A stretch of DNA of 33,425 nucleotides from Myxococcota bacterium (GTDB lineage Bacteria > Myxococcota_A > Polyangia > Polyangiales > Houyiibacteriaceae), in the NCBI GenBank assembly GCA_028284955.1, contig JANQQS010000138.1, forward strand, positions 1-33,425. Reading direction: 5' to 3'. The notes under the pieces were generated by a model. The model was given only the letters and a program-made list of their open reading frames with translations, had not been told where the DNA came from and searched no databases. Position 1 is the first letter of the stretch. Each line of letters begins with the position of its first letter. The position numbers were made by a program, and so were the translations under genes. Positions 490-33,425 of this stretch are shown here, piece by piece.

Positions 490-566
490 GGGTGAATCGG
501 CGGGGTCGTACCCCGACGAGAGAGGGTCTGGGTGCCAGACCCTCTCGCAAACTGATCAGTGCGCGG
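490..566 (-). repeat. Double-hairpin 3'-end repeat, copy 1 (abuts cydB)
   Basis: Contains two perfect hairpins: 522-544 (10-bp stem GAGGGTCTGG, 3-nt loop) and 501-515 (6-bp stem CGGGGT, 3-nt loop). The reverse complement matches 33298-33375 almost base for base. On the minus strand it starts in the last codons of cydB, and the cydB stop codon lies inside the repeat's conserved end. The hairpins could terminate or stabilise the cydAB transcript. There is no U-run directly after them, so a simple intrinsic terminator is not clear. Confidence 0.65.
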
Positions 567-30642: not shown

Positions 30643-31533
30643 TTACGCAAGCTCCTCGAGCGCGTCGGCGCAGCGGGCTGCCGCTTGGTCGTCGAACAAG
30701 AAGAATAGCCGAGGGTCGATCAGCTCGACCTCGTTGACAAACAAGGATCCGTCACGTTCGATTCCGTCGACTCGAGCGTAGGGCAATCCTTCGGCCAACA
30801 CCGCACGAGCGCTAGCCGCTTGCTCGATCAGTTGTGGCGAGGGTTCGTCGCGCACCGCGCTGCCGCCGTAGGTCGCTTGCTCGCGATACTCCCCGGCTTT
30901 CGGGACTTTCCGAACCGCGTGGCTAAACGTGGATCCGAAGAACACGAAGCTCCATTCTCCAGCGGAGCAGATTTCCGGAAAAAAGGGCTGGACGAGCACG
31001 TCTCCTTGTTCGCGAATCGCAGCCACTTGAGGCTCAAGCGCGGCGAATTCCTCGAGGCGTCCTCGAACGGTGCCTACCGCGCCGCCCGAAATCGCGGGTT
31101 TGAAAATGAACTCGTCCCAGCCTCGCGCAGCAAGCTCCTTACGCAGCGAGCACGTTTCTCCGGGCGCCACGAAAAGCGACGGGATCGTCTGCACGCCAGC
31201 TTCGGAGAGACGCAAAAGATAGCGCTTCGATATGTTTTCCCGCACCACTCGAGGAGGATTCCACAGCGGAAGCCGGCCGCGTTCACAGCGATCCAACCAG
31301 CCTCGAAACTCGTCAATCCGGAACAGGAAATCCCAGGTGGAGCGAATCAGCAATGTGTCTTGGCCCTCGAACGCGCTCGGCGGTTCGTCCCACCGAATAG
31401 GCGTCACGATGTGGCCACGCCGCTTAAGTTCCTCAACGAGCACGAGGTCGTCGTCTACATAAGCGCCGTCCGAAGAGTACGTGGCAGTAAACGGGTCATT
31501 CGATGTTCCTTTGATGATGATTCCAACGCGCAT
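30643..31533 (-). CDS. ATP-grasp ligase-like protein
   Basis: A 296-aa ATP-grasp protein resembling the RimK/DcsG-like group. Visible motifs: the pre-ATP-grasp part ends with LLIRSTWDFLFRIDEF; nucleotide-binding FIFKPAISGGAVGT; a central VQPFFPEICSAGEWSFVFFGSTFSHAVRKVPKAGEYREQATYGGS; and metal-binding end YARVDGI...LFVNEVELIDPRLFF. Such enzymes couple ATP hydrolysis to joining a carboxylate with an amine or thiol. The substrate is unknown; DcsG makes D-cycloserine in Streptomyces, but there are no other dcs genes here. ATG at 31533 has GGGAG upstream and lies nine bases after the AdoMet decarboxylase stop, so the two are co-transcribed. Confidence 0.85.
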   Translation of the reverse strand: MRVGIIIKGTSNDPFTATYSSDGAYVDDDLVLVEELKRRGHIVTPIRWDEPPSAFEGQDTLLIRSTWDFLFRIDEFRGWLDRCERGRLPLWNPPRVVRENISKRYLLRLSEAGVQTIPSLFVAPGETCSLRKELAARGWDEFIFKPAISGGAVGTVRGRLEEFAALEPQVAAIREQGDVLVQPFFPEICSAGEWSFVFFGSTFSHAVRKVPKAGEYREQATYGGSAVRDEPSPQLIEQAASARAVLAEGLPYARVDGIERDGSLFVNEVELIDPRLFFLFDDQAAARCADALEELA

Positions 31534-31542
31534 AACAACTCC

Positions 31543-32508
31543 CTACAACGTGTATACGAATGGCTCGCTGGCTCGCGCCGCTGGTCGATAGCAATGCAGA
31601 AACCGCACCTCGTAGCCCGCGGCAATGCCCTTCACGTCATCTTTGATGCGATAGTCCGGAAGCTCGAATCCCGGCGATGAACCCGCTGCTGGAGTGAACG
31701 CCACAATATCGACCGAACGGGGCCGAAAGATGTGCAGCACGCGAGAAATCAAATCTTGGGAATCGCCGCGAACGTCGACGTTCGTTTCGAAACTTACGTA
31801 GCTCCCGATTCGTTCGGGCGTGACGTGGATGGTGTAGTATTCATGGTCGCGCAGGGCATTAAGGGAGTAGCCGGCCGGCGTAAACGCGTGTTCGTCGACT
31901 CGAAAGCCAGGCAAGAGATTTCCGAGATCGACCGGGTCCACGCGGGTCGACCCGGGGCGAAAGCAGCGCAACCGATCCTCAGGCAACCCGTGCATGAGCA
32001 CTTCAAGCGTTGTGTCGTCGCTTCGCGGCAGGTGTTCCGCGGTCGTGTGAAATACGTGTACGCAGTGGTCGTGCTCCTCGCCGAAACGAAGGGCGCGCCC
32101 CGGAAGCCACGTCGCCAAACGTGAGGCGTCTTCCCGAAACGAGGTGGGCTGCCGCTCGGGAAAGTGTTCATTTTTCCGTTCGTAAATCAGCGATGCAATC
32201 TGTTTGGGAGGGATTTGCCGGAGCACCATGGCGACTGCATCCACGAGGCGTGTTTGCCCGCAGGTGATCAGCGTGAGGTGGTCGTCCCATACAAAAAGGC
32301 TGGATTCGGAAAGCAGGTAGGCGTCGCACACGTCGCTCTCCAGTTTGGAGAGAACCTGCGCTCCCGCTGCGGCGACCACTTCGTGCCACCACGATGGGTT
32401 CATGCTGCGAAGAGGCGGATGATCGCCGACCACTGCGATTTCCACTTTTTTTTCCGGACCCTCGAAATAGGTAGGGGGTTCTGCAGGGTTTCCCGAGGAA
32501 ATCGTCAT
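31543..32508 (-). CDS. Eukaryotic-type (class 2) S-adenosylmethionine decarboxylase proenzyme
   Basis: Makes decarboxylated AdoMet, the aminopropyl donor for spermidine. The 321-aa protein aligns with the eukaryotic enzyme and not with bacterial SpeD (about 115-260 aa). YFEGPEKKVE carries E16 and E19 (human E8, E11). YLLSESSLFV gives the self-cleavage site E68-S69, whose Ser becomes the pyruvoyl group. ITCG supplies C83 (human C82); GYSLNAL supplies S215 (human S229); TIHVTPE supplies H228 and E232 (human H243, E247). Thus processing and catalysis look intact. ATG at 32508 was chosen by comparison with the human N-terminus; a four-codon frame MSGR overlaps it just upstream. No spermidine synthase is in the window. 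The ATP-grasp gene follows. Confidence 0.93.
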   Translation of the reverse strand: MTISSGNPAEPPTYFEGPEKKVEIAVVGDHPPLRSMNPSWWHEVVAAAGAQVLSKLESDVCDAYLLSESSLFVWDDHLTLITCGQTRLVDAVAMVLRQIPPKQIASLIYERKNEHFPERQPTSFREDASRLATWLPGRALRFGEEHDHCVHVFHTTAEHLPRSDDTTLEVLMHGLPEDRLRCFRPGSTRVDPVDLGNLLPGFRVDEHAFTPAGYSLNALRDHEYYTIHVTPERIGSYVSFETNVDVRGDSQDLISRVLHIFRPRSVDIVAFTPAAGSSPGFELPDYRIKDDVKGIAAGYEVRFLHCYRPAARASEPFVYTL

Positions 32509-32628: not shown

Positions 32629-33294
32629 ATGCGTTTCTTCCTTTCTTATTGGGCGGCAATCGGCTGCCTTACGTATGCTCTTCTGCCCACGTCGGCGAAC
32701 GCCGACATCTATCGATGCACGGATCGGGACGGTACCGTCCACTTCACGAACGTCCGAGAGCGGGGACGCCGATGTCGGGTGGCGGTGCGTGAACGCAAAC
32801 GACGAACACGCCGCTCATCAGCGACACGCCCAAAACTGAGTTCCTCAGCGGCGCGCCATGCTGCGCAGCGCAGTTCGAAGACCGCCAGCGATCCAAACCG
32901 ACGACATCGCTACGACGCGATCATTAGCGCCGCTGCACATCTGTACCGGCTTCCTCCATCCTTCATTCGCGCGGTGATGCAGGTCGAAAGCAACTTCAAT
33001 CCCCACGTGGTCAGTCACGCGGGAGCAATTGGTCTAATGCAGTTGATGCCAAGAACGGCAAGCTCCATGGGAGTGCGCGATCCGTTTGACCCGCGACAGA
33101 ATATTTTGGGGGGCGCGCGCTATCTGAGAATCCTCGCGAACCGCTTTCGCGGCAATCTAGTGCTCACGGTAGCCGCGTACAATGCAGGCGAGGGCGCCGT
33201 CTTGCGGTATCGCGGCGTACCACCCTACGCCGAAACGCGCCGATATGTCCGCCGAGTGTTGGAGCACTACTACCGTTTTCGCTCCCGGTCCTAG
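32629..33294 (+). CDS. DUF4124-SLT lytic transglycosylase-like protein
   Basis: A 221-aa exported protein. It has a signal peptide (MRFFLSYWAAIGCLTYALLPTSANA), a DUF4124-like segment (IYRCTDRDGTVHFTNV, residues 27-42), a very basic linker (RRCRVAVRERKRRTRRSSA), and an SLT (lysozyme-fold) domain at about 95-215. The catalytic Glu is E120 in AVMQVESNFNP, followed by GAIGLMQLMP and AYNAGEGAVLRY. It likely cleaves peptidoglycan glycan strands. ATG at 32629 is the first good start, divergent from the AdoMet decarboxylase gene (120 bp). Its stop TAG lies three bases before a dispersed hairpin repeat. Confidence 0.93.
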   Translation: MRFFLSYWAAIGCLTYALLPTSANADIYRCTDRDGTVHFTNVRERGRRCRVAVRERKRRTRRSSATRPKLSSSAARHAAQRSSKTASDPNRRHRYDAIISAAAHLYRLPPSFIRAVMQVESNFNPHVVSHAGAIGLMQLMPRTASSMGVRDPFDPRQNILGGARYLRILANRFRGNLVLTVAAYNAGEGAVLRYRGVPPYAETRRYVRRVLEHYYRFRSRS

Positions 33295-33297
33295 TCG

Positions 33298-33425
33298 AGA
33301 GCAGTGGTCAGTTTGCCTGAGGGTCTGGCACCCAGACCCTCTCGTCGGGGTACGACCCCGCCGATTCACCCAGCTGTGTTTTTTGAGGGTCTGGCACCCA
33401 GACCCTCTGGCTGGGATACGATCCC
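33298..33425 (+). repeat. Double-hairpin 3'-end repeat, copy 2 (runs off the right edge)
   Basis: Starts AGAGCAGTGGTCAGTTTGCC three bases after the transglycosylase stop. Hairpins: 33319-33341 (10-bp stem GAGGGTCTGG, loop CAC), 33346-33360 (6-bp stem CGGGGT), a run of six T at 33379-33384, then a second copy of the 10-bp-stem hairpin at 33385-33407. It is the reverse complement of 490-566 over the shared 77 bp. It may act as terminator for the transglycosylase gene. Confidence 0.7.

Follow-up and report, generated by a model that had tools for sequence, protein, structure and literature searches.

Genes and features of the locus

The stretch of DNA analysed here (33,425 nucleotides, referred to as the window) carries two adjacent, intact minus-strand genes, which encode a class-2 (eukaryotic-type) S-adenosylmethionine decarboxylase (AdoMetDC) and an ATP-grasp ligase, and a lytic transglycosylase gene that is transcribed divergently from them (Table 1). 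The gap from the decarboxylase to the ATP-grasp gene is exactly 9 bases (31534-31542), which suggests that both genes are co-transcribed, and no spermidine synthase gene was found adjoining the pair in the window. The original prediction had described precisely this arrangement, with the ATP-grasp gene nine bases after the decarboxylase and no adjacent spermidine synthase, and the window sequence confirms both points.

Copies of a 23-bp near-palindrome, GAGGGTCTGGCACCCAGACCCTC, are also found in the window. At up to 2 mismatches this sequence occurs 223 times in the genome, and its reversed control 0 times. The copies sometimes form short runs, spaced about 66-68 bp apart (G000:C176:33065-33289), and they are often located near contig ends. 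The repeat is a REP- or MITE-like element.

Table 1. Genes, motifs and repeats located in the window.
Feature	Position	Strand	Evidence and remarks
23-bp near-palindrome GAGGGTCTGGCACCCAGACCCTC	522-544	-	Window copy
23-bp near-palindrome GAGGGTCTGGCACCCAGACCCTC	33319-33341	+	Window copy
23-bp near-palindrome GAGGGTCTGGCACCCAGACCCTC	33385-33407	+	Window copy
Putative ATP-grasp carboxylate-amine ligase, DcsG-like, 296 aa	30643..31533	minus	DcsG model, PDB 6jil; not a conserved speD partner
Predicted class-2 (eukaryotic-type) S-adenosylmethionine decarboxylase proenzyme, 321 aa	31543..32508	minus	PF01536, PDB 1msv, predicted fold
HVTPE motif (residues 228-232): H228 (processing; human H243), E232 (human E247)	31813..31827	minus	Alignments
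Ser69 codon (human S68), predicted self-cleavage site giving the pyruvoyl group	32302..32304	minus	Aligned with the human self-processing position
FEGPEK motif, residues 15-20, with E16 and E19 (human E8, E11)	32449..32466	minus	Conserved in alignments
Lytic transglycosylase (DUF4124 and SLT), divergently transcribed	32629..33294	plus	PF01464, 1.1e-29

Identity of the decarboxylase

The decarboxylase open reading frame (ORF) is intact, from an ATG start at 32508 to its end at 31543. Its product matches the class-2 profile PF01536 with an E-value of 4.5e-59 (200.7 bits, curated cut-off 22.2) and human AdoMetDC (1msv) with 1.8e-27 in a phmmer comparison, and it scores 139.1 against the narrower equivalog model TIGR00535, which is under the cut-off of 233.15. 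The AlphaFold2 model of the protein (pLDDT 89.1) has the human enzyme 1jl0 as its top PDB match (TM 0.85-0.87, E 4e-28, 314 aligned columns), and in this model the double-domain fold is predicted to lie on one chain.

Every catalytic residue of the human enzyme had been claimed to be present, and E16, E19, S69, C83, S215, H228 and E232 are indeed all found in the protein. All of them except E232 are invariant in two bacterial alignments, of 13 and 32 sequences respectively, and E232 is almost invariant in the alignment of 13. Residues F15, E16, G17, E19 and K20 of the FEGPEK motif are unchanged throughout both sets, and S69 sits in an LSESSLFV motif. The gene encodes a real and complete class-2 AdoMetDC with a full active site.

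Spermidine biosynthesis in the genome

The search for a spermidine synthase elsewhere in the genome, which the original prediction had proposed, located a canonical soluble SpeE (276 aa) on another contig, with 362.2 bits against a cut-off of 260. The genome thus contains the partner synthase expected for a SpeD of the spermidine pathway. A biosynthetic arginine decarboxylase (SpeA) is also encoded on another contig (871 bits, cut-off 369). No class-1 SpeD (PF02675) was found in the window genome, an assembly that is 96.55% complete and in 223 contigs, so that absence is not absolute; the class-2 enzyme is consequently the only AdoMetDC found in it. Class-1 SpeD was not found either in the 12 family members included in the phylum sample. 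Across the 284 sampled genomes of the phylum there are 126 carriers of class 1 and 15 of class 2 (PF01536), and only one genome (G145) has both. This tendency to mutual exclusion gives a Fisher p of 0.002 when kinship is ignored. A PF01564 match is present in all 15 class-2 carriers.

Several proteins related to these enzymes were also noted. In four class-2 carriers, L075 (G028), L077 (G081), L076 (G205) and L078 (G266), the top spermidine-synthase match is a membrane-fused polyamine aminopropyltransferase of about 505 aa or longer, with no soluble SpeE; L075 gives 644 bits against PRK03612 (cut-off 472). The window genome itself encodes two multi-membrane proteins of about 1000 aa (L017 on G000:C214 and L018 on G000:C183) with a weak spermidine-synthase domain, one of them with TPR-like repeats. 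Besides, class-1 proteins of about 270 aa with two SpeD units in tandem (L223-L232) occur in the same phylum, mostly in family f20. By eye, their C-terminal half retains the catalytic pattern ESH...FSC and their N-terminal half has lost it, which is opposite to the class-2 arrangement with its cleavage site in the N-terminal half. These tandem proteins were considered as relatives of class 2 and rejected, because no similarity emerged when the profiles were compared (probability 1.3%).

The locus is very probably explained by ordinary spermidine biosynthesis, in which the class-2 enzyme replaces class-1 SpeD and the ligase is a lineage-specific neighbour. The proenzyme would cleave itself at Ser69 to generate the pyruvoyl cofactor and would then decarboxylate AdoMet, and the decarboxylated product would be used for spermidine formation by the canonical synthase encoded elsewhere in the genome. 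Putrescine would be supplied from arginine via SpeA, presumably followed by the steps leading from agmatine to putrescine. The class-2 enzyme would thereby stand in for the bacterial class-1 SpeD, and the downstream ligase would perhaps be transcribed with it. With SpeE and SpeA available from other loci of the genome, there is no need to invoke a special sink for decarboxylated AdoMet. Counting against this explanation is the fact that in this phylum speD is found without linkage to speE.

A different fate of decarboxylated AdoMet, namely aminopropyl transfer outside spermidine (for example by membrane-fused spermidine-synthase-like proteins), is improbable here. A 'polyamine-independent role' of this kind was reportedly put forward by Li et al. 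in 2019. Such a transfer would accommodate the two proteins of about 1000 aa in the window genome and the 505-aa membrane-fused form of related class-2 carriers, but in the window genome a canonical soluble SpeE passes its equivalog cut-off, and SpeA is present as well. As regards the group, decarboxylated AdoMet may be put to use outside spermidine, since the best match in G028, G081 and G205 is only the membrane-fused form. For the window genome, ordinary spermidine biosynthesis is the preferred explanation.

The ATP-grasp ligase and the gene neighbourhood

The original prediction had gone further and proposed that decarboxylase and ligase form a dedicated pathway, with decarboxylated AdoMet or a polyamine as the substrate of the ligase. 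The nine-base gap and the common strand agree with this proposal, and so does the fact that the ligase retains the conserved ATP-grasp residues: K103, K145, Q182, E193, R254 and D256 are identical in 31/31 aligned sequences, DcsG included. Nevertheless, the closest characterised relative of the ligase is the D-cycloserine synthetase DcsG (PDB 6jil, 7.6e-19), which is not a polyamine ligase. The NCBIfam DcsG model itself matches at 2.1e-36, yet the score of 125.6 bits falls far short of the equivalog cut-off, which is 360. No polyamine-ligase family of Pfam or NCBIfam was matched, with just sub-threshold matches to GSH-S_ATP, DcsG and glutathione synthase, and no glutathionylspermidine synthetase domain was matched in Pfam.

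Conservation also argues against a dedicated pathway. A ligase-like gene lies beside class-2 speD in none of 14 other genome loci and in none of the 80 loci of the best 80 of 360 relatives. A few of these 80 break off shortly after speD, and the two groups of loci, 94 together, overlap in part. Within the window's family the ligase has a clear relative in only two other genomes (G188 and G183), on contigs without speD. The survey for the pair in other genomes, proposed with the original prediction, thus found it neither at the speD loci of relatives nor in the family, and the pair is private to the window's genome within the data searched, where the family survey comprised 34 genomes and a second genome of the window's genus is absent from the sample. 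Relatives of the ligase are found in 96 of the 284 phylum genomes (E 0.001 or better), and 20 of their loci were inspected without revealing an informative common neighbour, one gene type recurring in 4. A dedicated pathway is accordingly very improbable, the pair being unconserved and SpeE and SpeA encoded elsewhere. The result that decarboxylase and ligase do not make up a new pathway kept among relatives removes a false lead. The best explanation is that the ligase is a lineage-specific neighbour within a DcsG-like orphan family.

The neighbour kept in many Myxococcota relatives is the divergent lytic transglycosylase and not the ligase. At 7 of the 14 genome loci, and at about 19 of the loci from the best 80 of 360, strong transglycosylase matches lie near speD. 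Weak 'SLT' matches inside speD were disregarded, being antisense artefacts of an ORF whose start was placed too far upstream. Some relatives of genus g2 (L024, L026-L029) have, as read by eye from translations, an ORF resembling L-aspartate oxidase downstream of class-2 speD and, about 4 kb farther, one resembling AdoMet synthetase (metK). In 43 of the 80 loci (best 80 of 360), class-2 speD is followed immediately downstream by the spermidine synthase gene speE.

Least probable of all is a neofunctionalisation of the decarboxylase toward arginine or ornithine: this is widespread among class-1b SpeD homologues, according to PMC10407285, but the protein retains the human class-2 active-site residues, SpeA is already present for arginine, the enzyme is the sole AdoMetDC found in a genome carrying canonical SpeE, and its relatives lie directly upstream of speE.

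Distribution and phylogeny of bacterial class-2 enzymes

The original prediction regarded this enzyme as a normally eukaryotic class present in a bacterium, by lateral transfer or as an ancient bacterial branch. The protein does belong to an established bacterial branch, and its presence in a bacterium is not new: PMC10407285 states that class-2 AdoMetDC is encoded by some bacteria (citing Li et al. 2019) and that phylogeny points to a eukaryotic source of the bacterial enzymes. A scan of the contigs of GTDB species recovered 360 stretches encoding class-2 relatives. The best 80 of these 360 come from metagenome-assembled genomes (MAGs) and isolates, mainly of Myxococcota, Bdellovibrionota and Elusimicrobiota, and also from Acidobacteriota (Sulfidibacter corallicola), Planctomycetota and one Marinomonas, where MAG taxon labels may hide misbinned contigs. 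The decarboxylase protein is present in 28 of the 34 genomes of the window's family. No class-2 SpeD was found in viral contigs, in agreement with PMC9992855, which reports no class-2 AdoMetDC in viruses. These data indicate that class-2 AdoMetDC spans several bacterial phyla and, in the sampled phylum genomes, mostly replaces class-1 SpeD.

An unrooted maximum-likelihood tree was built with 80 bacterial proteins (best 80 of 360) and the human, potato and Trypanosoma brucei enzymes, the eukaryotic sequences being taken from PDB entries. A well supported branch (100/98) sets all bacteria apart from the eukaryotes, and the window protein lies inside a mostly Myxococcota group of 33 rows (100/97). 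Branching within known bacterial SpeD had been named beforehand, like a lack of conservation of the pair, as an outcome that would refute the original prediction; both outcomes were obtained, the bacterial SpeD being of class 2. Such deep nesting in the bacterial clade speaks against the window's genome having acquired the gene in a recent transfer of its own. Bdellovibrionota are nearest the base of the bacterial clade in this unrooted tree with only three long-branched eukaryotes. It could be proposed, contrary to the published direction, that bacteria (Bdellovibrionota, Myxococcota, Elusimicrobiota) have had the class-2 enzyme since ancient times and that eukaryotes obtained it from them, but this seems unlikely. 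Because the tree is unrooted, its eukaryotic branches are long and its bacterial side consists of the best 80 of 360 relatives, it does not show which way the transfer went. The wide spread of the class-2 enzyme over bacterial phyla offers material on which the direction of this ancient transfer between bacteria and eukaryotes can be tested.

Comparison with known systems

The ligase has in common with DcsG (6jil) the ATP-grasp family and its conserved residues, and DcsG is the closest curated model, yet the score is far under the equivalog cut-off. As for the decarboxylase, the class-1b SpeD of Thermotoga maritima (1vr7, 1tlu) catalyses the same reaction predicted for the class-2 enzyme, is about half its size and matches one half of its fold weakly (TM over the target 0.61-0.64).

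The likeness to human AMD1 (1msv, 1jl0) is much more extensive and includes the predicted fold, the self-cleavage serine and the equivalents of E8, E11, C82, S229, H243 and E247, with 28-29% identity in the structural alignment. A network of charged residues binds putrescine in the human AdoMetDC. From this network the acidic E23, D165, E169 and E241 are kept in the bacterial protein, whereas human K80 is replaced by isoleucine, as read from the alignment. Finally, the window protein shares its clade and its invariant residues with the other bacterial class-2 AdoMetDCs, the Myxococcota members being mostly 46-58% identical to it. In Bdellovibrionota and Elusimicrobiota class-2 speD is usually followed directly by speE, whereas in Myxococcota, including the window genome, the two genes are unlinked.
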